Part shown: piece after piece, positions 4,256 through 56,671 of the stretch
How the letters are laid out: the number at the start of each line of letters is the position of its first letter
How positions within the stretch are numbered: the first letter of the stretch is position 1
Assembly: GCA_028718185.1 (NCBI GenBank)
Contig: JAQUMH010000005.1
Location: forward strand, 1-64,000
DNA length: 64,000 bases
Direction of reading: 5' to 3'
Source: Elusimicrobiota bacterium
GTDB taxonomy: Bacteria; Elusimicrobiota; UBA8919
The notes under the pieces: model-generated
The model's database searches: none
What the model was told of the DNA's origin: nothing
What the model saw: the letters and a program-made list of their open reading frames with translations, nothing else
Position numbers and translations under genes: made by a program

Positions 4256-4284
4256 TTGACAAAATACTGATTTTACGTTATACT
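4256..4284 (+). promoter_or_regulatory. Near-consensus sigma-70 promoter of the adhesin unit
   Basis: TTGACA at 4256-4261, a 17-base spacer and TATACT at 4279-4284. The -35 box is perfect, the spacing ideal and the -10 one base off consensus. Transcription would start near 4291, immediately before the riboswitch, so the RNA would begin with the aptamer. Confidence 0.85.
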
Positions 4285-4292
4285 TTTAGTAG

Positions 4293-4430
4293 GAAGAACG
4301 ATAAGGGCAAATGCTGATGTAACAATCAGCAGACGCAAAGCCAAGAACTCATTATTTGAGTAGTGGGCTGTCGAAGTTTCCGAGAGATTTTGTATCAAAC
4401 TCAGATGAGCTGCCGGTTGCCGAAAAGCAC
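4293..4430 (+). promoter_or_regulatory. Class I cyclic-di-GMP riboswitch (GEMM), upstream of the adhesin
   Basis: The conserved GEMM blocks appear in order: AGGGCAAA (4304-4311); a perfect 7-bp stem TGCTGAT/ATCAGCA with a GTAACA loop that contains a GNRA-like GTAA (4312-4331); GACGCAAAGCC (4332-4342), the most diagnostic block; a second hairpin whose tip is ACTCA/TGAGT (4347-4361) and whose base pairs GCC with GGC; and GCCGGTTGCCG (4412-4422), the 3' strand that closes the aptamer. About 40 bases between the second hairpin and the 3' strand are longer than in textbook examples, so part of the fold is uncertain. In this family binding of cyclic di-GMP, or cGAMP in a subclass, changes expression of the gene downstream, often one for adhesion or motility. 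Confidence 0.8.
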
Positions 4431-4437
4431 GGGATTT

Positions 4438-4500
4438 AGAGCCTTTTTCAAGGTTCTGGTTTCGTCTTTATCAGCATACCGGTTTTCGTTTTCTGGTGAA
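4438..4500 (+). promoter_or_regulatory. Probable riboswitch expression platform with ribosome-site hairpin
   Basis: Two hairpins lie between aptamer and start codon. The first, AGAGCCTT-TTTC-AAGGTTCT (4438-4457), is followed by a weakly T-rich stretch and might be a poor terminator. The second pairs ACCGG (4478-4482) with CTGGT (4493-4497). The second arm overlaps GGTGA (4495-4499), the best ribosome binding site for the ATG at 4506. Sequestering of that site suggests control of translation. Whether the ligand turns the gene on or off cannot be read from the sequence. Confidence 0.5.
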
Positions 4501-4505
4501 CTAAA

Positions 4506-7500
4506 ATGAAAACCGAAAAAAAACTATATTTTATACTATTTATACTCCTCTTGTTAGGTATGTGCTATCTATACAGCGAAGATGAGGGGTACATCATAAT
4601 CGAACCGGAACCAGATCCCATAATAACTCCAGTAGACGACACTCCACCAGTACCCGATACAACACCGCCAACAGGTTCAATAATTGTTAATAATGGAAAT
4701 CCTCTTTATGTCAATTCAATAAATGTTACACTCTGCTTAACTTACTCCGATGCCGGCTCCGGTGTTGATACGGTCAGGTATAGTAATGATAATTCTGTCT
4801 GGACCTCTTGGGAATCGCCTTCTGCTACTAAAATCTGGCAATTGGTATCAGGTGACAGTCTTAAAACTGTATATTACGAAGTAAAAGATAAAGCAGGGAA
4901 CGTAGCACAATTTAACGATACAATAACAATTGACGCTACTTTACCTACAGGTTCAATTACTATAAATAATAATAATCCTGATAATACTGATTCGGTAAAT
5001 GTTACTCTTTACCTGACATATTCAGATAACGGTTCCGGTATTGATATGGTCAGGTACAGTAATGATAATTCTATCTGGACATCATGGGAATCAGCTTCTG
5101 CTGTTAAAAACTGGCAATTGGTATCTGGCGACGGTGTTAAAACTGTATATTACGAAGTAAAGGATAACGCAGGTAATGTAACTCAATTTACTGATACTAT
5201 TATTCTTAAAACATTTATACCGGATACTACCCCGCCGATTGCTTCTATTTTAATAAATAATAACGCAGCTTATACAAATTCTATACCTGTAACTATAACA
5301 ATTTCTGCTTCTGACCCTGAATCAGGTATTACAGGTATGAAAATATGGAATACTGGAAATACAGAACCAGCCGCTTGGGAACCTTATGCTATATCTAAAA
5401 ATTGGAACTTGACATCAGAAGACGGAATAAAAACTATCAATGTAAAATTTAAGAACGGCCAAGGATTGGAAACGTTAGCAAATGATACTATCAGTCTTGA
5501 TACTTCTTTGCCAGCGGGCTCAATTGTAATTAATAGTGGAAATCCTGAATATACAAACTCTATTAATGTTACGCTTTGTTTGACATATTCTGATAACAGC
5601 TCCGGAGTCGATATGGTCAGATATGGCAATAGCGGAGATTTTTGGACTCCATGGGAGTTACCTTCCGCTACAAAAAGCTGGCAATTAGCATCAGGTGAAG
5701 GTGTTAAAACTGTATACTACCAGGTAAAAGATAAAGCAGGAAATATAACTCAATTGACTGATACTATTATTTTCAAAGCACCGGATACTACACCGCCGAT
5801 TGCTTCTGTTTTAATAAATAATAACGCTGATTATACAAATACTCTATCAGTAACGCTAACAATTTCTGCTGCTGACCCCGAAACCGGTATTACCGGTATG
5901 AAAATATGGAATACCGGAAATACAGAACCAGCCACTTGGGAACCTTATGCTACATCTAAAAATTGGAGCTTGACATCAGAAAATGGAATAAAAACTGTCA
6001 ATGTAAAACTTAAGAACGGCCAAGAACTGGAAACATTAGCAAATGATACTATCACTCTTGACACTATTTTACCGGCAGGTTCAATAGCTATAAATAATAA
6101 TAACCCTGATAACACTGATTCAGTAAATGTTACTCTTTACCTTACATACTCGGATAACGGTTCCGGTGTTGATATGGTGAGATATGGCAATAGCGGGGAT
6201 GTCTGGACTTCCTGGGAGTTACCTTCTGCTACTAAAATCTGGCAGTTAACATCAGGTGAAGGTGTTAAAACTGTATACTACCATATAAAAGATAAAGCAG
6301 GAAATGTAACCCAACTTACTGATACAATCACGTTTAAAGTACCGGATACTACACCTCCGATTGCTTCTGTTTTAATAAATAATAACGCAGCTTATACAAA
6401 TACAATATCAATAATATTGACACTTTCCGCAGTTGATAATGAATCAGGTATTACAGGTATGAAAATATGGAATACCGGAAATACAGAACCAGCCACTTGG
6501 GAACCTTATGCTATATCTAAAAATTGGAACTTAACATCAGAAGACGGAATAAAAACTGTCAATGTAAAATTTAAGAATGGCCAAGAACTGGAAACGTTAG
6601 TAAATGATACTATCAGTCTTGACACTATTTTACCTGCAGGTTCAATAGTAATTAATAGTGGAAATCCTGAATATACAAACTCAATAGACGTTACACTTTA
6701 CCTGACAAACTCGGACAGCGGTTCAGGTGTTGATATGGTCCGATATGGCAATGATAGCGATGTATGGACTCCTTGGGAATTACCTTCTGCTACTAAAATC
6801 TGGAAACTAACATCAGATAACGACATTAAAACAGTATATTATGAAATCAAAGATAAAGCAGGAAATGTAACTCAATTCAGTGATACTATCTCTCTTGATA
6901 CAACACCGCCATCAGGGTCAATTGTAATTAATAATAGCAATCCTGAATACACTAATTCAATAGATGTTACACTATGTTTAACTTATTCAGATACTGACTC
7001 TGATATTGATACAGTTAGATATAGTAATGATAATTCTATCTGGACATCATGGGAATCGCCTTTTGCTACTAAAAATTGGAAACTGGTAACAGGCGATGGC
7101 GTTAAAACTGTATATTATGAAGTAAAAGATAAGGCAGGTAACGTTGCACAATTTACTGACACAATTAGTCTCGATACTTCTTTACCGGCAGGGTCAATAG
7201 TTATCAACAATAGCAATCCCGAGTATACTGATTCAGTTGATGTTACTCTTTCCCTGACATATTCTGATAACGGCTCCGGTGTTGATATGGTCCGATATGG
7301 CAATGATGGAGATGTATGGACTGTTTGGGAATTAGCTTCTGCGACTAAAATTTGGAAATTAACATCAGGTGACGGATTGAAAACTGTATACTACGAAGTA
7401 AAAGATAAATCCGGAAATATAGCACAATTTAGTGACACTATTACTCTTGAAACAATAATAGCGGCAACAATAGACATTAATCCAAACACCTTAAATCTTA

Positions 7501-9269
7501 AAAGTAAAGGTAACTGGATAACAGCATATATAGAATTACCGATAAGATATAATGTACAAAACATTAACATCTCTTCCTTACTGTTGAATGATAAAATTTC
7601 CGCAGAACAAAAATCAACATCTACCGGTGATCACGATTCCGATGGAATACCTGATCTAATGGTCAAGTTTTCAAGAGAGGAAGCGCAAAAGATACTTTGT
7701 ACCGGTGAAGATGTTACCCTGACACTTACAGGTTCGCTTGTTGACGGGAAAAAACTTATTGCAAGTGATACTATAAGAGTAATTGAACCCGGTAAGGGCC
7801 CAAAAGAATCAGAAGAATCTAAAAAAACCGTAGAAGTAACTGAACCGGAAAAAATTGAAAACCCGGTAGAAGTAAAAAACCACAAGAAACTAAAAGAATT
7901 TGAGAAGCCTAAAGAACCCAAAGGATTTGAAGAACCTAAAAAAATCGTTGACATAACCGAACCGGAAAAATCTAAGGCTTCTGAAGAACCTAAAGTATCC
8001 GAAAAACCTGTGGAACCTAAAGAACCTAAAGGATTTGAAGAACCTAAAAAAATCATTAACGTATTTGAACCCGAACTACCTAAAATTGTTGAAGAAAAAG
8101 TATCTGAAAAACCTGTTGAACCAAAAGAACTTGAAGAACCTAAAAAAATCGTGGAAGTATCCATACCTGAGAAAGATAAGAACGAACCGGAAAAACCTAA
8201 TGTATCTGAAAAACCAGCAGAATACAAAGTAATTGAAGAACCTAAAAAAATCGTTAACATAACTGAACCGGAAAAACCTAACACACCTGTTGTTTCAGAA
8301 AAAAGCGTAACTGTTACTTTAAAAGAAAAAGAAATTCATTTTGTTTTAGCACAAAAATTACCGGAAACATCCAATATATTAGAAGCAGTTCTCTGGCTTG
8401 GACTTAAAGATAAGAAAGAAACCCCGGAGGTTTACTATCACAATTCATTCCAGAATAAATATGTATTTCATAATAAGTATATGCTAAAACCCGGAATGGG
8501 ATGGGATATTACAGGTGGCGTAACAGAAGATAGAAATCAAAATAAAGAAATATCGATTTTGGTAAAATTTAATGAAGATATAATATCAGATTATGTGTTA
8601 GTAGTTGTGTATGGAAAAGAATCTTCTAAAGAAAAAATAGTAGTATTTAGCGGCGGGAATATAGTCCTTCCTGCCGGCTTAAACAGCGAAATAACAATGA
8701 AAGAAAATGCTGAAGCAAAACCTATACCCCAGAACCTTAAACCTATTTCCAGAACTTTCGAACCGAGTGAAAAAATTGAACTTACTAAAGAGGCCGTAAT
8801 AACCTTATCCTATAACGATGTTGTTTTAAATGATACGAATGAAAAAGATTTGAAAATCTTTTATTATGATGAAAAAGAATCTAAATGGCAACCGCTTGCT
8901 AACTGCGAAGTAAATGTTAGCCAGAAAAACATCAGCGCTAAAACGACAAAATTGTCAACATTTCAAATCATGGCACCTGTTATAATAAAAACTTTAGCAC
9001 CTCTTAAATCGCAACTGGGTCAAAACTATCCGAACCCATTTAATCCAGCGACAACAATAAACTATTCCATAGAACGTGATTGTCATGTATCATTAAAGCT
9101 CTACAATGTTGTCGGGGAACTTGTTGCAACAATAGTAGATGAATTTAAAACTGCCGGAAAATATTCGGTTTACTATGACGGCGGAGCACAGCTGTCCAGG
9201 GGAATTTACTACTACCAGATAATAGCAGGAAGTTTCGTTAACACCAAAAAAATGGTCGTGTTGAAGTAG
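4506..9269 (+). CDS. Giant repeat adhesin with C-terminal type IX-type sorting domain
   Basis: A 1,587-residue secreted surface protein. In order: a signal peptide (about residues 1-24) with a long Leu/Ile core; an acidic Pro-rich linker; ten Ig-like beta-sandwich repeats of about 90 residues (about 53-980); a domain with D-S-D-G-I-P-D-L and VTLTLTGSL of a kind seen in other large surface proteins (about 985-1095); a Glu/Lys/Pro-rich stalk (about 1095-1275); a beta-rich domain (about 1280-1490); and a final domain with QNYPNPFNP and YNVVGELV, the FlgD-like / Por sorting fold read by type IX secretion systems. Expected role: attachment to surfaces or cells after export and anchoring on the outer membrane. 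It stands alone behind its own promoter and riboswitch, with a PorV-like gene 230 bases downstream. Ligand unknown. Confidence 0.82.
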   Translation: MKTEKKLYFILFILLLLGMCYLYSEDEGYIIIEPEPDPIITPVDDTPPVPDTTPPTGSIIVNNGNPLYVNSINVTLCLTYSDAGSGVDTVRYSNDNSVWTSWESPSATKIWQLVSGDSLKTVYYEVKDKAGNVAQFNDTITIDATLPTGSITINNNNPDNTDSVNVTLYLTYSDNGSGIDMVRYSNDNSIWTSWESASAVKNWQLVSGDGVKTVYYEVKDNAGNVTQFTDTIILKTFIPDTTPPIASILINNNAAYTNSIPVTITISASDPESGITGMKIWNTGNTEPAAWEPYAISKNWNLTSEDGIKTINVKFKNGQGLETLANDTISLDTSLPAGSIVINSGNPEYTNSINVTLCLTYSDNSSGVDMVRYGNSGDFWTPWELPSATKSWQLASGEGVKTVYYQVKDKAGNITQLTDTIIFKAPDTTPPIASVLINNNADYTNTLSVTLTISAADPETGITGMKIWNTGNTEPATWEPYATSKNWSLTSENGIKTVNVKLKNGQELETLANDTITLDTILPAGSIAINNNNPDNTDSVNVTLYLTYSDNGSGVDMVRYGNSGDVWTSWELPSATKIWQLTSGEGVKTVYYHIKDKAGNVTQLTDTITFKVPDTTPPIASVLINNNAAYTNTISIILTLSAVDNESGITGMKIWNTGNTEPATWEPYAISKNWNLTSEDGIKTVNVKFKNGQELETLVNDTISLDTILPAGSIVINSGNPEYTNSIDVTLYLTNSDSGSGVDMVRYGNDSDVWTPWELPSATKIWKLTSDNDIKTVYYEIKDKAGNVTQFSDTISLDTTPPSGSIVINNSNPEYTNSIDVTLCLTYSDTDSDIDTVRYSNDNSIWTSWESPFATKNWKLVTGDGVKTVYYEVKDKAGNVAQFTDTISLDTSLPAGSIVINNSNPEYTDSVDVTLSLTYSDNGSGVDMVRYGNDGDVWTVWELASATKIWKLTSGDGLKTVYYEVKDKSGNIAQFSDTITLETIIAATIDINPNTLNLKSKGNWITAYIELPIRYNVQNINISSLLLNDKISAEQKSTSTGDHDSDGIPDLMVKFSREEAQKILCTGEDVTLTLTGSLVDGKKLIASDTIRVIEPGKGPKESEESKKTVEVTEPEKIENPVEVKNHKKLKEFEKPKEPKGFEEPKKIVDITEPEKSKASEEPKVSEKPVEPKEPKGFEEPKKIINVFEPELPKIVEEKVSEKPVEPKELEEPKKIVEVSIPEKDKNEPEKPNVSEKPAEYKVIEEPKKIVNITEPEKPNTPVVSEKSVTVTLKEKEIHFVLAQKLPETSNILEAVLWLGLKDKKETPEVYYHNSFQNKYVFHNKYMLKPGMGWDITGGVTEDRNQNKEISILVKFNEDIISDYVLVVVYGKESSKEKIVVFSGGNIVLPAGLNSEITMKENAEAKPIPQNLKPISRTFEPSEKIELTKEAVITLSYNDVVLNDTNEKDLKIFYYDEKESKWQPLANCEVNVSQKNISAKTTKLSTFQIMAPVIIKTLAPLKSQLGQNYPNPFNPATTINYSIERDCHVSLKLYNVVGELVATIVDEFKTAGKYSVYYDGGAQLSRGIYYYQIIAGSFVNTKKMVVLK
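4662..7455 (+). repeat. Ten in-frame Ig-like repeats of two types, order A-A-B-A-B-A-B-A-A-A
   Basis: Each unit is about 270-290 bases. Type A opens with G-S-I-x-I-N-N and carries a VDMVRY core, WTSWE and VKTVYYEVKDKAGN. Type B opens with A-S-I/V-L-I-N-N-N and carries ITGMKIWNTGNTEP, then WEPYA and IKTVNVK. Seven A and three B units alternate in the middle. DNA identity between B units is high over long stretches, including third codon positions, which suggests recent duplication or gene conversion and makes this stretch prone to copy-number change and assembly error. Confidence 0.88.
7795..8300 (+). repeat. Degenerate Glu/Lys/Pro-rich repeats within the adhesin stalk
   Basis: Units built on E-E-P-K-K-I-V-x-x-T-E-P-E-K and S-E-K-P-V-E-P-K recur five or six times. 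Such charged Pro-rich tracts usually form extended, wall- or capsule-spanning stalks. The bias in base composition leaves a long open frame on the opposite strand, which is a shadow and not a gene. Confidence 0.75.
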
Positions 9270-9306
9270 GAATAAAGGTGTCCTAAGTCTGTGAATCAAT
9301 GTAGCG

Positions 9307-9333
9307 GCAGAGTCTTACTCTGCTTTATTTTTT
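9307..9333 (+). terminator. Rho-independent terminator after the adhesin
   Basis: A 6-bp stem GCAGAG/CTCTGC with a TCTTA loop is followed by TTTATTTTTT. It lies 37 bases after the adhesin stop codon. The same GCAGAG stem recurs in dispersed repeats at 16111-16126 and 41616-41631, so a repeat may have been recruited as a terminator. Confidence 0.7.
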
Positions 9334-9400
9334 GATTTTCCTGATACTTTCTAACAATTCCTTTTAAACATTTGACAGTAGCGTAATATTATTTTATAAT

Positions 9401-9495: not shown

Positions 9496-10509
9496 ATGAA
9501 ATTAAAAAAACAAAAAATAAATAACTTGCATTCTAATTATTATATATTTCGTTCTTTCCTTATTTCTGATTTCTTGCTTCTTGCTTCTTGCTTCTTATTT
9601 CTTGCTTCCTGTTCCTCCCTTTATGCAGTTAATACGGGGGCTGATTTTCTTAAGCTTGGGATTGGAGCGAGACCATCGGCGTTAGGAGAATGTGGGGCTG
9701 CTTTATCTTCTGATGTAACAGCAATTTACTGGAATCCTGCCGGTCTGGCTAAAATAGAAAAAATGGAATTGGTAGCTGCTCACAGCCAGACGGTTATGGA
9801 CGCTACTTTCGGGTTTTTAGGTTTTGCATACCCGAATAAAAAATTTGGGAATTTTGGAGTTGGTAGTACACTCTTTATTCCTGAATCTGTTCCCATAACA
9901 ACAACAAGCGAGGAGACGGAAGGACAATTAAGATGGCTGGATGTGGCTTTTACATTATCATACGGAAGAGATATTATAAATAACCTTTCAGCAGGAATAG
10001 GATTTAAAATAATTCACCGGAAAGAAAGCAGCCCTATATTTGATACGAAAGGAACCGCGTATGCAGGTGATTTCGGTTTTATATATCAACTGAACCCGGA
10101 TTTTATTGCTGAAAAAGATGAAAAATTAAATTTGGGGTTTTCAATGTCAAACTTGGGAAACAAAATACAAATGAGCGGTGAAACAAAAAAAGATAACCTC
10201 CCGCAAACAACAAGACTTGGTTTTGCATACGAGTTCCACCCGAACAATGAAAATGCTATAATTGTTTTGAGTGAAGTTAACAAAATATTGGATGAAAAAT
10301 TAGGATTTGGGTTTGGTACGGAATACAAACTTAGAGAACCGGTTTTTATAAGGTTTGGATATCTTACTAAAGAAGGGAATATAAAAGGTATAACATACGG
10401 GTTTGGAATTAATGTAAAAGGATTCCAGTTGGATTATAGTAACGTACCGGTTAGTGAGCTTGTAGGATGGACACGGGACAATAGGATTTCGTTAATTGTT
10501 AGGTTTTAG
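9496..10509 (+). CDS. PorV/PorQ-family outer-membrane beta-barrel protein
   Basis: A 337-residue protein of the PorV/PorQ (UPF0164) family, FadL-like barrels. A basic start and Leu/Ser/Cys-rich signal peptide (to about residue 50) lead into the family signature: GADFLKLGIGARPSALG, then SDVTAIYWNPAGLA, where N-P-A-G is the hallmark. The rest shows alternating strands and ends in an aromatic residue (IVRF), as outer-membrane barrels do. PorV shuttles type IX cargo to the surface attachment machinery; its place just after a cargo-like adhesin makes that role plausible, though other family members have different roles. No strong ribosome binding site precedes the ATG. The signal peptide is encoded by a tandem CTTGCTT-type repeat. 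Confidence 0.82.
   Translation: MKLKKQKINNLHSNYYIFRSFLISDFLLLASCFLFLASCSSLYAVNTGADFLKLGIGARPSALGECGAALSSDVTAIYWNPAGLAKIEKMELVAAHSQTVMDATFGFLGFAYPNKKFGNFGVGSTLFIPESVPITTTSEETEGQLRWLDVAFTLSYGRDIINNLSAGIGFKIIHRKESSPIFDTKGTAYAGDFGFIYQLNPDFIAEKDEKLNLGFSMSNLGNKIQMSGETKKDNLPQTTRLGFAYEFHPNNENAIIVLSEVNKILDEKLGFGFGTEYKLREPVFIRFGYLTKEGNIKGITYGFGINVKGFQLDYSNVPVSELVGWTRDNRISLIVRF
9564..9612 (+). repeat. Tandem TTCTTGC repeat encoding a signal peptide
   Basis: TTGCTTC recurs about four or five times with small changes (TTGCTTCTTGCTTCTTGCTT and onwards). Translated it gives the hydrophobic LLLASCFLFLASC core of the signal peptide. The same phenomenon is seen at 15963-15994 with a different repeat. Confidence 0.65.
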
Positions 10510-14141: not shown

Positions 14142-16049
14142 TTATTTTTTCAATTCTTTTTTTGCTCTTTCCAGGTTTTTGGCGGCAGATTCATGTCCGG
14201 GATTTAATTTTAGCGCGTCTTCCCAGAATTTAATCGCCTCTTTCAGGTTTCCTTGATTGTATTCTATCAAACCTTTGTTATTGTATTCGTCCGCCAAAAC
14301 TTTATTTTTTTCAAATTCTTCATTAACTTTTTCTTGGCATTTCTTTATATAATCCAGAGCTTCCTTATAATCCGGCACACATTCCAATGATTTATTCAAA
14401 ACAGTTATCGCTTCTTTATAAAAACCGTTTTCAAAAAGTTTCTGCCCTTCTTTTAAATACATATTAGCAACCTTTTCTTTTGTCTTGGTTAAATAGTCAT
14501 CTACTTTCAAAGTTCCATCCGATTTTTGAGATATTTCAGTAAACAATCCCAGTGCTTTTTTATAATTACCTTTATTATAAAATTCCAACGCCTTTTCATA
14601 AAGAATCTTATACCGTTCATCGAGTTTCCTTCTTTCCCTCTTTTCAATATCTATTTTCGCTTTAACAATATATTCTTTACTTGACGCATGTTCCGGGTCA
14701 AGCAATATAACTTTTTCCCAGATACTTATTGCATCTTCAAATTCGTCTCTATTATAAAATTCAAGCCCCTGGTTAAACAATATCTCTAATCTTTGTTTTT
14801 TTTCTTTAAGAAGCCCTTCCTGAACTTCAGCCAGATATTTTTTTGCCTGAACATTTTCTTTATCCACCAATAAGACACTTGTAAACTCTTGTTCTGCTTT
14901 TAAAAAATCGTTCTTTTCAAGATATTTCTTTCCGGAAACCAGGTGTTTTTCAATATTTGCTTCACTTATATGAACCGTGATTTTATCCAGATAATCTTTG
15001 GCTTCCTGATTGGTCGGGTCATAAACCAAAACATTTTTAAATTCTTCCTGCGCTTCTATCAAGTCCTTCTTTTCAAAATATCTTTTCCCTTTTTTCAGAT
15101 ATTTTTCAATTTTCTCATTTATTACATCAAGCTCGTGACTTTTTCCAAAATAAATATTCATACCGAAATGATGAGTATCGCCAAGAAGCCCGTAAGGGGC
15201 AAAAGCATAGTCAAAAGATATTTTTTCGTTCCCTACCCCGAACCCGAAACGGATTCCGTTTATATCCCTGAATTTATACCCGACCCTTAACATAAGCAAA
15301 TCAAGAAACTGGTATTCAGTACCTACATTAAAATAACCAACCCTGTCTTTTGGAATATTATAGTCCACGTCAAATGTTAAATCATCGTTAAGAAATTTAG
15401 AACTGGCACCTAACTTAATATTGAGCGGTAATGGGTCTTCTGTGACTGAATTCCCTATGTTCTGTACTGCAACCGCTAAATTAACAGGTGCCGGTTTTTC
15501 TGCTTTAAAAAGCAATCCAACATCACCGGCTAAACATATAGTTTCGTCATCATCCAGTTTTTCCTGAATTACTTTGATGTTTGCACCGGCGGATAGTTTT
15601 TGATATAAGATATTTGAGTATGAAACAATAAAAGCCCGGTCAAACGTACTTATTTTATCAGTAGGAACACCCCCGGCATTATATCCCTCAATTTTACCAA
15701 AAGATAAATTATATAAACTCCCTGCGAAAGTACCGATATTAAGCGGCAGCACAAAAGATACCGTCTGGTAATCGATATCCTGGAACCATTTAAGATATTC
15801 TGCACTTACCCCTTTATATTTTACCTGTGAAAGCCCTGCGGGATTCCAATAAATTGCGTTCATATCGTCTGCAACAGCAGTAAACGCTTCACCCATACCG
15901 GCGCCACGAACACCTGTTGCAATTTTAAGAAAATTAAACGCAGTCGTTCCGGGCTCCCCGTATAGGAAGTAGGAAGTAGGAAGTAGGAAGTAGATAACAA
16001 ACAACAAACAAAGGATATTATGATTATAATATGTTTTTTTCAATTTCAT
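14142..16049 (-). CDS. PorV/PorQ-like barrel fused to a TPR domain
   Basis: About 635 residues, roughly twice the length of a PorV-family protein. After a signal peptide (to about residue 32) comes a barrel (about 35-320) with the hallmarks TGVRGAGMGEAF and MNAIYWNPAGLS. The C-terminal half (about 325-635) is a run of TPR motifs such as KKGKRYFEKKDLIEAQEEF, YNRDEFEDAISIWEKV and YNQGNLKEAIKFWEDAL. The TPR part would be periplasmic if the barrel is in the outer membrane, and could dock periplasmic or secretion components. The start was put at the ATG at 16049; a GTG at 16064 is in frame. A tandem TACTTCC repeat encodes part of the signal peptide. Downstream lie the two kinase genes, upstream the second sorting-domain protein. 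Confidence 0.8.
   Translation of the reverse strand: MKLKKTYYNHNILCLLFVIYFLLPTSYFLYGEPGTTAFNFLKIATGVRGAGMGEAFTAVADDMNAIYWNPAGLSQVKYKGVSAEYLKWFQDIDYQTVSFVLPLNIGTFAGSLYNLSFGKIEGYNAGGVPTDKISTFDRAFIVSYSNILYQKLSAGANIKVIQEKLDDDETICLAGDVGLLFKAEKPAPVNLAVAVQNIGNSVTEDPLPLNIKLGASSKFLNDDLTFDVDYNIPKDRVGYFNVGTEYQFLDLLMLRVGYKFRDINGIRFGFGVGNEKISFDYAFAPYGLLGDTHHFGMNIYFGKSHELDVINEKIEKYLKKGKRYFEKKDLIEAQEEFKNVLVYDPTNQEAKDYLDKITVHISEANIEKHLVSGKKYLEKNDFLKAEQEFTSVLLVDKENVQAKKYLAEVQEGLLKEKKQRLEILFNQGLEFYNRDEFEDAISIWEKVILLDPEHASSKEYIVKAKIDIEKRERRKLDERYKILYEKALEFYNKGNYKKALGLFTEISQKSDGTLKVDDYLTKTKEKVANMYLKEGQKLFENGFYKEAITVLNKSLECVPDYKEALDYIKKCQEKVNEEFEKNKVLADEYNNKGLIEYNQGNLKEAIKFWEDALKLNPGHESAAKNLERAKKELKK
15963..15994. 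repeat. Tandem TAGGAAG repeat encoding a signal peptide
   Basis: Four copies of TAGGAAG, read on the minus strand as TACTTCC units, encode FLLPTSYFL in the signal peptide of the PorV-TPR gene. Because seven is not a multiple of three, successive copies are read in different frames, yet all give hydrophobic residues. Confidence 0.65.
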
Positions 16050-16071
16050 GTTATCAATATTCACAAAACAG

Positions 16072-16153: not shown

Positions 16154-18820
16154 TTATTTTATCACTACTATTTTCCCGAACTTCTTTTCTCTTTCGTTTT
16201 TTATGTGATAAATGTATACACCACTCGCTAAAACATTGCCATCGTCAGTCCGGACATCCCACCTTTCAAGCGGGTTGCCGTCAGTGTGTTCAATTTGTTT
16301 GACTAATTCCCCGCTTATCGTGAAAATTTTTATTGTCGCATAAGACGATATATTCGTGAATGTTATCGCGGTATCCGTACCCACCCTGAACGGGACCGGA
16401 TATGCATAAGCATTAGAAAGGTCGGTTGTATTTGTTCCCATCAATGCGAAAGTAGAGAAATGCGGGACATTTGCTGTAACTTTATTATTGGCTGCATCTA
16501 CAATATAATCCGGTAATTTTACCCAAAGATTATCATTTTCATTTAAATAATAAATTGCAAGCATATTCTCTCTTACCGGGAAAGACATGCCGGTTACAAT
16601 TCCATTTGTTTCAGTGTAAGGAATAGTAACTGTTACATCTGAAGAAAAATTATTAGTCACAAAATTACCGGAAACGTTATAGGCAGTAAATTCACGCACT
16701 GTTCCTTGTATAAAAGAATAAAATGGGTCATTAAAACTTGGGAGTTTAGCATTTGCCCGTTCAACCAGCGAAATCTTAGTTGTCGCCGTACTTCCTATAA
16801 CATATACTTTTTCAGGAAACGCTCCCGGTGAAATAGTCACGCTGAATAATTCAGGATTTACCGGGTCTTTAACAATATTTGAAGCTCTATTATCCAAAAT
16901 AGTACTGAACGTCCAGGTTTTTGAGTCACTCAATCTCTTGCCATATATGTCATATGCGGTGGTTGTTATAGTAACTTCATAAATATAATTATTCTTTAAA
17001 AGACTTGATGTAAAGGATAACTTCTTCTCACTACTTACATATTCTGCCGTCCCTGTAACTGCTAAATCAACATCGCTACTTTCACTGTTTCTTATTGCTT
17101 TTACAGATATAGCGCCTTCTGTAGTTGTTTTTTCCATATCCTCACTGAAATGGACATATATTGATTTGATTATATCTACTCCCAACGCTTTATCAGAAGG
17201 GAAAACTGATACTATTGCAGGTAAACTTCTAAAAGTACTAAAAGTCCATGTCTTCGAATCACTTAATCGCTTGCCATACACGTCATAAGCAATGGTTGAT
17301 ATAGTAACTTCATAAGTATAATTACTTTTTAAAAGGTTTGACGTAAAAGATAACTTTTTATCACTACTTGTATACTCAACAGTTCCTGCTACCGCTGTAT
17401 CAACTACTATACCCTCATTGTTTCTTATTGCTTTTACGGATATAGCACCTTCTGTAGTTATCTCTTCCATATCATCACTAAAATACACATATATTGATGT
17501 GCTTACATTGACATCAGACGCGTTATCAGGTGGAAAAAATGAAACTATCACAGGTGAACTTGTAAAAGTACTGAATGTCCATGTCATTGAACTTTGCAAA
17601 TAGTTACCGTATATATCATTTGCGATGGTTGATATGGCAACTTCATAAGTATAATTATTCTTTAAAAGATTTGAGGTGAAAGACAGCTTCTTATCGCTAC
17701 TTGTATACTCCGCGATTCCTGCTACCCCTGTATCTACTACAATACCCTCATTGTTTCTTATTGCTTTTACAGATATTGCTCCCTCTGTAGTTGTTTTTTC
17801 CATATTTTCACTAAAATATACATAGATTGACGTGCTTATATGGACATTAGACGCGTTATCAGGCGGAGAAAATGTAACTATTGAAGGTACTGCCGCAACA
17901 TTTAAATTTCCAGATAGTGAATTATTAGTTTCATCTGACTCACTTACTAAATTGGGATAATCCACAACAGAATAAATATTATGACTACCGGCTGTTGCTG
18001 TCCAAGTGGTTGAGACAACAACTGATTCTTCACTAAGCAGCGGTTTTTCAAATACATTTGAACTTATAAATATTCCTCCACCAGTTGGATTTCCATCATA
18101 AAAACTAACAATAGTTTGAGTGCATTGATATAATTTATAGTAAATCTCATTGATTCCTGAAACGCTTGTAGTTGAAGCCCAACTAAGCCCCATATCTATA
18201 CTTCCTCCTACCTTATCTATTGCCACACCGCTTTTTAGTCCTATTCCATATGATACTGTAGAAGTACTTTCTATGCATAACCAGTACGTCGTCGAGGCAC
18301 TTAAATATGGAGGCGAATCAAAAACAAATTCCTGCCAATGCTGATATGTCGTAGGATTGTTCAAAGGATTGGAAGTACCTACTACAGGGACTAATGCACC
18401 ACTGGGTACTAAAGCACCAAAATATACATTGTTTTGACGTATTGTCACATTTATATAATTTGTTGTTATACCAGTAAGATTTCTAATTATGATTTCTGCT
18501 TTTCCTAAATACATGTTATATGGTAAAACAAAACAATTTGCATACCATACAGAAGAAGATAACGCTGTCGTGCCGCTTGAGGTCCATGCCTGATAAGAAG
18601 ATGTCGCCGGTGTGAGAACTACCTGGTTGGAATAATTCTGGTCAATATTTCTAACCGTGGCGGAAATTGTGAGTACCTGATTATTTGAAGGTGTGTTATC
18701 ATTGAAAGTTATATCGGATATTGTTAAATCCGGCAGAGCATGTAAATTGCAGGTAAAAAAGCAAAAGAATAGTATGAAAACCGGAACATTAAAGATACTA
18801 ATTATAATTTTTCTTTTCAT
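16154..18820 (-). CDS. Secreted CARDB / Ig-like protein with type IX-type sorting domain
   Basis: About 888 residues. A signal peptide is followed by PDLTISDITF, the start of a CARDB domain. That domain breaks off near residue 66 and resumes near 239 with IVSFYDGNPTGGG, ending in VSESDETNNSLSG; about 170 residues of another domain (with YLGKAEIIIRNLTG and TTYWLCIES, reminiscent of jelly-roll surface domains) sit between. Then come three Big_5/SbsA-like Ig repeats, each with PPDNASNV or similar and VYFSENMEKTTTEGA (about 315-640), a linker domain, and a C-terminal FlgD-like sorting domain with YPVPFRVG and FTISGELVKQI. It should be exported and anchored or released by type IX secretion. The ATG at 18820 was preferred to a GTG at 18832. 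Function beyond surface protein is unknown. Confidence 0.8.
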   Translation of the reverse strand: MKRKIIISIFNVPVFILFFCFFTCNLHALPDLTISDITFNDNTPSNNQVLTISATVRNIDQNYSNQVVLTPATSSYQAWTSSGTTALSSSVWYANCFVLPYNMYLGKAEIIIRNLTGITTNYINVTIRQNNVYFGALVPSGALVPVVGTSNPLNNPTTYQHWQEFVFDSPPYLSASTTYWLCIESTSTVSYGIGLKSGVAIDKVGGSIDMGLSWASTTSVSGINEIYYKLYQCTQTIVSFYDGNPTGGGIFISSNVFEKPLLSEESVVVSTTWTATAGSHNIYSVVDYPNLVSESDETNNSLSGNLNVAAVPSIVTFSPPDNASNVHISTSIYVYFSENMEKTTTEGAISVKAIRNNEGIVVDTGVAGIAEYTSSDKKLSFTSNLLKNNYTYEVAISTIANDIYGNYLQSSMTWTFSTFTSSPVIVSFFPPDNASDVNVSTSIYVYFSDDMEEITTEGAISVKAIRNNEGIVVDTAVAGTVEYTSSDKKLSFTSNLLKSNYTYEVTISTIAYDVYGKRLSDSKTWTFSTFRSLPAIVSVFPSDKALGVDIIKSIYVHFSEDMEKTTTEGAISVKAIRNSESSDVDLAVTGTAEYVSSEKKLSFTSSLLKNNYIYEVTITTTAYDIYGKRLSDSKTWTFSTILDNRASNIVKDPVNPELFSVTISPGAFPEKVYVIGSTATTKISLVERANAKLPSFNDPFYSFIQGTVREFTAYNVSGNFVTNNFSSDVTVTIPYTETNGIVTGMSFPVRENMLAIYYLNENDNLWVKLPDYIVDAANNKVTANVPHFSTFALMGTNTTDLSNAYAYPVPFRVGTDTAITFTNISSYATIKIFTISGELVKQIEHTDGNPLERWDVRTDDGNVLASGVYIYHIKNEREKKFGKIVVIK

Positions 18821-18952
18821 TTCAATAATCACTTATTTACTAAATAAATATAAGCATACAATCTATTTTAGTCATTGTCAAGTCATTTTTCATTGTAAAA
18901 ATACACATTTATAACTAGAATCGTACAGAATTTATATATTTTGAATAGCAAG

Positions 18953-55513: not shown

Positions 55514-56671
55514 TTAGGGCATATTTACAATCATTTCTTCCCAAACACAAACACGGTTTCTACCGCTTCTCTTTGCAGTATAAAGAGCATCATCCGCCAT
55601 TTTTATCAGTTTGTCTTTATCAATCCTCTTTTCCCCGTGCCAGGAAACAATACCAATACTTATGGTAATTTTAAGTTTTTGACCTTTAATCTCGAGCGGT
55701 GAATTTTCAACATTTTTTCTAAGCCGTTCTGCAATACTTTTTACAAGTTCAACTGTCTGTTCCATTTTAGGGTCAGGAATAAGTATAACTGCAAATTCTT
55801 CTCCGCCATATCTTGCTAATATATCGCTTAATCGCATTGTATTTCTTAATATTTTAGACAAGTGAACTAATGCAAGATCGCCAACCTGGTGACCATAAAC
55901 ATCATTAAAATTTTTAAAATAATCTATATCAAACATAATTAACGAAATTGTCTGGTTAAACCTTTTGGCACGATCCATTTCTTTCTCAAGACGGTTATGG
56001 AAATACTTGTGTATATAAAGTTCTGTCAGACCATCAGTAATCGCGTTTTCATATAATCTCGCATTTTGGATTGCAACGGCTGCCTGGTTAGCAAGTATTG
56101 CTGTTATCCTCCTATCATATTCTGAAAATTTCTCTCCGCCTATTTTTTTATCAAGCGATACGACCCCTAAGACATGTCCCTTAAAAATTAACGGCAAACA
56201 TAAAAGCGTCTCTTTTGGGCGGGGTTTTTGTTCATCTGATTTAAAATCCATATAAAGATATTTTTCTTTGCTTGTGTCATCAATAAGTATTGATTCACAA
56301 GTTGCAGCAACTACACCTGCTACTCCCTCGGCAAGTCTCATTTTAACAACATCATAAGCATGCGGTGACAGCCCAATACCTGCCTTTATTTCCAATGTTT
56401 GTGTTTCTTCGTTCATGAGCATTATCGAGCCTTTGGTTACATTGCTTGCTTTAGCAAATGCATCCATTATCTGAGGCAAAAGGTCTCTCATTTCGAGTGT
56501 AGCTGTAATATCCTTTGAAAGATTCTGTATTAATTTTAAATCGCTATTCAGCCGTTCGAGTTCTCTTGCTTTCTTTTTAAAGAAAAGAATGGAAAGCCAT
56601 AATATATATACAACGGAGGCAGCTATACATATTAAAACGACATTTTGTAACCAATATGGTATCATGCTCAT
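55514..56671 (-). CDS. Diguanylate cyclase with GAF sensor (GGDEF protein)
   Basis: A 385-residue membrane-anchored enzyme that makes cyclic di-GMP from two GTP. One N-terminal helix (residues 9-31), a short coiled coil, a GAF domain (about 50-205) and a GGDEF domain (about 210-380). The active-site loop is GGEEF at 289-293, so it should be catalytically active. An RxxD inhibitory site (R-L-S-D, 280-283) lies five residues before it, giving product inhibition. The GAF domain may sense a small ligand. It is placed between folK and argG and may be co-transcribed with folK. It is the one cyclic-di-GMP-making enzyme in a window with a riboswitch and two candidate PilZ receptors. Confidence 0.92.
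   Translation of the reverse strand: MSMIPYWLQNVVLICIAASVVYILWLSILFFKKKARELERLNSDLKLIQNLSKDITATLEMRDLLPQIMDAFAKASNVTKGSIMLMNEETQTLEIKAGIGLSPHAYDVVKMRLAEGVAGVVAATCESILIDDTSKEKYLYMDFKSDEQKPRPKETLLCLPLIFKGHVLGVVSLDKKIGGEKFSEYDRRITAILANQAAVAIQNARLYENAITDGLTELYIHKYFHNRLEKEMDRAKRFNQTISLIMFDIDYFKNFNDVYGHQVGDLALVHLSKILRNTMRLSDILARYGGEEFAVILIPDPKMEQTVELVKSIAERLRKNVENSPLEIKGQKLKITISIGIVSWHGEKRIDKDKLIKMADDALYTAKRSGRNRVCVWEEMIVNMP

Follow-up and report, generated by a model that had tools for sequence, protein, structure and literature searches.

We lean modestly toward the reading that a GEMM-I riboswitch controls transcription of a type IX adhesin gene through a terminator in this Elusimicrobiota bacterium, that it is turned ON when a distal copy of the aptamer's 3' half is captured with ligand, and that it is one member of a regulon. 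Computation directly shows five elements of this reading: promoter, aptamer, a 3' half in duplicate, a terminator hairpin and the recurrent pairing with type IX genes. The window referred to below is the whole stretch of DNA analyzed, 64,000 nucleotides in length.

A GEMM-I aptamer upstream of a type IX adhesin gene

The leader, the adhesin gene and the neighboring PorV-like gene comprise the following features.

4256-4284, plus strand: sigma-70-type promoter, TTGACA-N17-TATACT
4291-4381, plus strand: GEMM-I aptamer with P1, P2, P3 and the proximal 3' half (RF01051 match, fold)
4357-4375, plus strand: proximal 3'-half copy of the aptamer, U at position 92 (base 4371), a probable decoy (3'-half profile score 7.8; position key G20/A47/U92)
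4406-4424, plus strand: distal 3'-half copy (TGAGCTGCCGGTTGCCGAA), C at position 92 (base 4420) (motif; 3'-half profile score 9.7)
4412-4483, plus strand: terminator hairpin of 72 nt, 5' arm overlapping the distal 3' half (-33.2 kcal/mol, z -4.63, no shuffle equally stable)
4483-4494, plus strand: interrupted U-tract TTTTCGTTTTCT 3' of the terminator hairpin (sequence, terminator search)
4495-4499, plus strand: likely ribosome-binding site GGTGA, 6 nt upstream of the ATG at 4506 (sequence)
4506-9269, plus strand: 1,587-aa repeat adhesin-like protein, T9SS type A cargo (NF047446, TIGR04183)
9306-9324, plus strand: intrinsic terminator 3' of the adhesin gene, 8-bp stem and T-run
9372-9400, plus strand: the PorV-like gene's own promoter, TTGACA-N17-TATAAT (12 of 12 consensus bases, 17-nt spacer)
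9496-10509, plus strand: PorV/PorQ family shuttle-like outer-membrane protein, 337 aa (NF033709, PF19572)

The only Rfam family scoring above its own cut-off within the 64-kb window was RF01051 (c-di-GMP-I, GEMM-I), which matched 4296-4375 on the plus strand with 38.0 bits (gathering score 35; E 7e-4 in the window scan). This search, which the first-pass annotation had suggested for the leader, bears out the GEMM-type aptamer that it had proposed. The near-consensus promoter it had described matches at 11 of 12 bases, and the RNA start expected from the promoter position, about 4291, coincides with the first base of P1, as had been claimed. Promoters with no or one mismatch were located upstream of about half of 26 related leaders. 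P1 is formed by 4292-4302 and 4370-4381, and the predicted minimum energy fold of 4291-4381 is a closed three-way junction (P1-P2-P3; -27.9 kcal/mol, z -3.7) in which the conserved core, GGGCAAA and GACGCAAAGCC, is present. The RNA element is thus confirmed as a real GEMM-I aptamer.

The adhesin gene was also recovered as first described, that is, as a repeat protein with a type IX sorting domain. Its OmpL47-type repeats matched NF047446 with 134.5 bits, and residues 1508 to 1585 matched the T9SS type A tail model TIGR04183 (26.1 bits vs a cut-off of 23), with Pfam PF18962 staying below its cut-off (24.3 vs 27 bits). Tandem repeats with a period of 276 occupy window positions 6632-7455, and the terminator announced at its end is the hairpin with T-run at 9306-9324. 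The PorV-like gene said to follow does encode a member of the PorV/PorQ family (NF033709, 180.7 bits vs a cut-off of 90; PF19572, 47.2 bits); with the PorV equivalog model NF033710 it stays below the cut-off (119 vs 250 bits). One correction is needed here: because this gene has its own perfect promoter (9372-9400) behind the adhesin terminator, it is probably a separate transcription unit, not cotranscribed with the adhesin. Elsewhere in the window, on the minus strand, lie a further PorV-TPR gene (14142-16064, 640 aa) and a further gene for a T9SS-tail protein (16154-18832, 892 aa), both without an Rfam riboswitch match in the 64-kb window scan.

Downstream of the aptamer, the hairpin at 4412-4483 is the dominant structure (z -4.6), which places a terminator upstream of the ribosome site. 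The first-pass annotation had instead seen a hairpin covering GGTGA, and this proved to be a minor structure of only 5 bp. We therefore regard as very improbable a translational switch in which that hairpin would hide the ribosome site: ACCGG is able to pair with CTGGT across GGTGA, but the same bases take part in the far more stable terminator. Aptamers of some other families do end a few bases before the start codon, and translational control may exist there. Against the terminator stands the interruption of its U-tract. Within the window's family, 22 of 32 leaders have a terminator of -10 kcal/mol or stronger in the stretch that separates the aptamer from the gene, compared with 6.9 in shuffles. 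In the leaders of the window, C1:651849, G002 and G015, the distal 3' half serves as the 5' arm of the terminator; in C1:947950 and in two G006 leaders this role falls to the only or last 3' half of the aptamer. The expression platform is, on this evidence, likely an intrinsic transcription terminator and not a hairpin at the ribosome site.

Two 3' halves and the direction of the switch

In the window aptamer a single 5' half precedes two copies of the 3' half, a layout shared by many related leaders. In a motif search, a second 3' half was found within 130 nt in 14 of 30 leaders of the window's family (0.7 expected); outside this family, 4 of 46 had a second copy with a score of more than 7. 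Judging from their sequences, about half of the family's switches have two 3' halves that compete for a single 5' half.

To score the copies, we used a 3'-half profile of 14 positions built from 46 riboswitches of families other than the window's. The distal copy outscored the proximal one in 17 of the 18 two-copy family leaders scored (for example, 19.3 vs 7.4, 22.5 vs 8.1 and 18.1 vs 5.8), a trend to which no strict p-value can be attached, since these leaders include many paralogues and orthologues. The sole exception (G018:C227b; 12.8 proximal vs 9.5 distal) is the second aptamer of a tandem pair. In the window the two scores are close, 7.8 and 9.7. Proximal copies deviate at ligand-contact positions, with U92 in the window and GCCGUU in other leaders. 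In several leaders these deviations allow pairing with the 5' strand as P1, and U92 of the window's proximal copy is itself base-paired within P1. The distal 3' half can pair with the 5' strand of P3 at 4339-4342 and 4348-4351. When P3 strands were swapped among 13 non-redundant leaders in a permutation test of the specificity of distal pairing, the result was marginal (p 0.04), and the native pairing of the window did not outdo the swapped ones, its distal region being rich in G+C. We therefore relied on the duplication and the profile scores instead.

In the mechanism that we propose, the RNA would fold first with the proximal 3' half, a degenerate decoy closing a self-paired P1. Without ligand, the distal 3' half would then form the terminator and the adhesin would be off. 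With a cyclic dinucleotide bound, the 5' half of the aptamer would capture the distal 3' half, no terminator would form, and the adhesin would be made. If the distal copy is the ligand binder, capture and termination are mutually exclusive, and the result is an ON switch of the Geobacter pilM kind. If the proximal copy binds the ligand, the same parts give an OFF switch like Cd1: ligand would stabilize the proximal aptamer, the distal copy would act as antiterminator, and c-di-GMP would turn the adhesin off. We consider this opposite sign unlikely but by no means negligible. In its favor, a closed P1 is formed by the proximal copy both here and in several relatives, RF01051 aligns to that copy in the window, and Cd1 of Clostridioides is a known transcriptional OFF switch (PMC9262584); however, proximal copies are the poorer match to a ligand-binding 3' half, with the one exception above, and in the window the paired U92 weighs against it. 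Energies do not decide the direction. The proximal fold of the window is the more stable (-70.7 vs -60.8 kcal/mol), so in the ON scheme ligand binding must pay several kcal/mol for the swap. We infer that ON is about twice as probable as OFF.

The large energy gap between the two folds, together with the low score of 38 bits and the U92 of the first copy, could also be those of a degenerate relic in which switching has been lost. This appears quite improbable given that the intact promoter, the core GGGCAAA and GACGCAAAGCC, a second intact 3' half and the terminator have all been retained together.

The ligand of the window aptamer

We take the names of the c-di-GMP-I-UAU and GGC variants to give the bases at positions 20, 47 and 92, and we mapped these positions onto the window aptamer. 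On this assumed numbering, both ligand-contact bases G20 (base 4306) and A47 (base 4337) are present. In the GEMM-I structures that have been solved, the base at position 92 pairs with the ligand; here it is U in the proximal and C in the distal 3' half. The key G/A/C was the commonest in the phylum sample (39 of 54, with 9 of the A20 type) and in the window's family (22 of 35, with 6 A20). The c-di-GMP-I-UAU variant model, RF03168, was also considered and rejected: it gave the best clan score locally, 39 bits, far below its cut-off of 65.9, and although it shares with the window a U at position 92 and a GUUGUC-like 3' end, position 20 of the window is G, not U.

The window also encodes a potential source of ligand.

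55514-56671, minus strand: canonical GGDEF protein (diguanylate cyclase) with a GAF-like region

Because of this protein, c-di-GMP is likely available, and with G20, A47 and the distal C92 it would probably be the ligand, made by diguanylate cyclases such as this one. The first-pass annotation had named c-di-GMP as the second messenger. Control at the RNA level is well supported by recurrence, but the ligand of the window copy is uncertain because its first 3' half has a U at ligand-contact position 92. Another cyclic dinucleotide, such as 3',3'-cGAMP, thus has to be weighed. The engineered changes G20A and C92U shift the dinucleotide choice of the Vibrio aptamer (PMC7288161), the proximal copy of the window has the key G20/A47/U92, and natural A20 forms with AAUAGCAAA, which resemble natural cGAMP aptamers (contact list in PMC7288161), are present in the same genome and phylum. 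On the other side, the distal copy keeps the canonical C92, the GGDEF or GGEEF motif is intact in all four strong GGDEF proteins of the genome, and three of these also have the aspartate that usually contacts guanine. We judge a different ligand for the window aptamer to be improbable.

The GGDEF protein at G000:C11:61500-64000 (L173) has N in place of the guanine-contact D (GHLAGND) and is a possible promiscuous cyclase. A PilZ-domain protein is encoded near the riboswitch gene, at 2070-2450 of the window on the minus strand. Across the phylum, position 20 is A (L155, L164, L165, L168, L169, L171, L115, L116) or G (L130, L131, L021) before orthologous PorV-TPR operons, which suggests that the ligand type may have changed between cGAMP type and c-di-GMP type while the target stayed.

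Recurrence on type IX genes in the genome and the phylum

In the genome (3.03 Mb, 27 contigs), RF01051 matched 13 times at E 0.001, with 6 matches above the cut-off. The same genome gave 65 T9SS-tail matches, 53 PorV-family matches and one SprA-like protein of 1,726 aa. Downstream DNA was readable at 11 riboswitch loci, and the first gene was a T9SS cargo or PorV-family gene in 8 of them (p 6e-9 if the base rate is taken as 5%). A ninth locus had a gene of this type in third place; at the remaining two, the riboswitch heads a pilin operon (C2) and a series of giant frames (C3:80010), respectively.

The former (G000:C2:96424, L023) has a two-copy GEMM leader, which stands before a prepilin-like operon, not T9SS genes. 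At the latter (G000:C3:81025-141563; L019, L179, L180, L178), an A20-type riboswitch precedes two frames separated by a run of 100 N. The first has 1,936 codons; the second stays open for 18,319 codons (86606-141563) and ends in a weak T9SS-type tail. The two may be one protein of about 20,000 residues. Four loci (L022 in the G000:C1:651849 region, L097, L098 and L110) have tandem aptamers of which the second is degenerate. There the start codon of the cargo lies within the 3' half of the second aptamer (AAGATGGCTGAACTRCCGAA), so that this aptamer overlaps the coding sequence.

RF01051 was found in 108 of the 295 sampled genomes of the phylum. From 40 other genomes we took 40 further loci, 37 of which were usable. 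A gene for a T9SS-tail or PorV protein came first in 22 of the 37 and within three genes in 24, compared with 13 of about 507 other open reading frames in the same DNA (2.6%; odds ratio 70, p 2e-23). Many of these loci are orthologues from a small number of operons, and the p-values therefore make them look more independent than they are. In 5 more of the 37, the riboswitch led straight into a SprA-like gene of about 1,917 aa, and the two such proteins scanned scored 94 to 95 bits with TIGR04189. In the window's family, too, SprA-like genes occur behind the riboswitch, in first place in G015 and in third place in G002; the four SprA-like proteins scanned in all scored 94 to 136 bits. The presence of SprA as such is an uninformative correlate, as 254 of the 295 sampled genomes have it. 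A recurring operon consists of the riboswitch, a PorV-TPR protein (about 540 aa) and a FliG-domain TPR protein (about 650 aa). The FliG-TPR proteins (L021:5745-7703, L116:3028-4980) combine FliG middle and C-terminal domains with TPR and are apparently exported; similar-sized genes are found behind the PorV-TPR gene of riboswitch-led operons in many families.

The targets are thus of three separate kinds: cargo, PorV-type genes and SprA. The idea of second-messenger control of type IX cargo at the RNA level gains stronger support because the pairing recurs throughout the genome and the phylum. This suggests that the window RNA may be one member of a GEMM-type regulon acting on type IX secretion genes, including the translocon.

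With that of the Bacteroidota, another phylum than that of this genome, the secretion system itself has in common type A-tailed cargo, proteins of the PorV family and a putative SprA-like translocon. It differs in that the 1,726-aa SprA/Sov homologue, matched at E 6e-35, stays under the equivalog cut-off (119.8 vs 200 bits), and in that GldM and the C25 (PorU-type) peptidase were undetected. The motor protein GldM had no match at E 0.1, though a divergent motor may exist, and the search for a PorU-type C25 peptidase gave no match, though no control matched either.

As an RF01051 member, the window RNA has the two-stem core with GGGCAAA and GACGCAAAGCC, a promoter-proximal leader and a terminator-based output; unlike the usual members, it stands on type IX genes and has two competing 3' halves with U92 in the first. 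In the cGAMP riboswitch of Geobacter pilM, a transcriptional ON switch, one strand of the aptamer also serves the terminator (PMC9262584). The proposed window mechanism shares with it the GEMM-I fold, this double use of a strand and the prevention of termination by ligand, whereas the pilM switch has a pilus operon as target, cGAMP as ligand and no reported duplication of the 3' half. In Clostridioides difficile, Cd1 (c-di-GMP-I) and c-di-GMP-II switches act on motility and surface adhesins (PMC11477304, PMC9262584). Control of surface adhesins by cyclic-dinucleotide RNA is therefore common to both, but those adhesins are Gram-positive and not type IX cargo, and Cd1 is OFF.

A search of the literature open without subscription returned nothing pairing a c-di-GMP or GEMM riboswitch with type IX secretion, and within the same coverage nothing relevant on riboswitches in Elusimicrobiota. 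The window RNA belongs to a known riboswitch class, of which it is a variant acting on a new target system through a platform with two 3' halves; we found no description of that platform. We tentatively go further, at a little under even chances: the whole phylum would run type IX secretion, from translocon and PorV-type proteins to giant cargo, under cyclic-dinucleotide riboswitches; orthologous operons would swap G20 c-di-GMP-type and A20 cGAMP-type aptamers; and in one family the 5' half would choose between two 3' halves, a decoy and a real one, the latter doubling as the terminator arm.

To our knowledge, the control of type IX secretion beyond the Bacteroidota is essentially unstudied. 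If true, a conserved RNA regulon of this kind would tie the export of surface proteins to cyclic dinucleotide levels. It would also provide a handle on a poorly studied group of bacteria and a new riboswitch architecture, the duplicated 3' half, that is testable in vitro.
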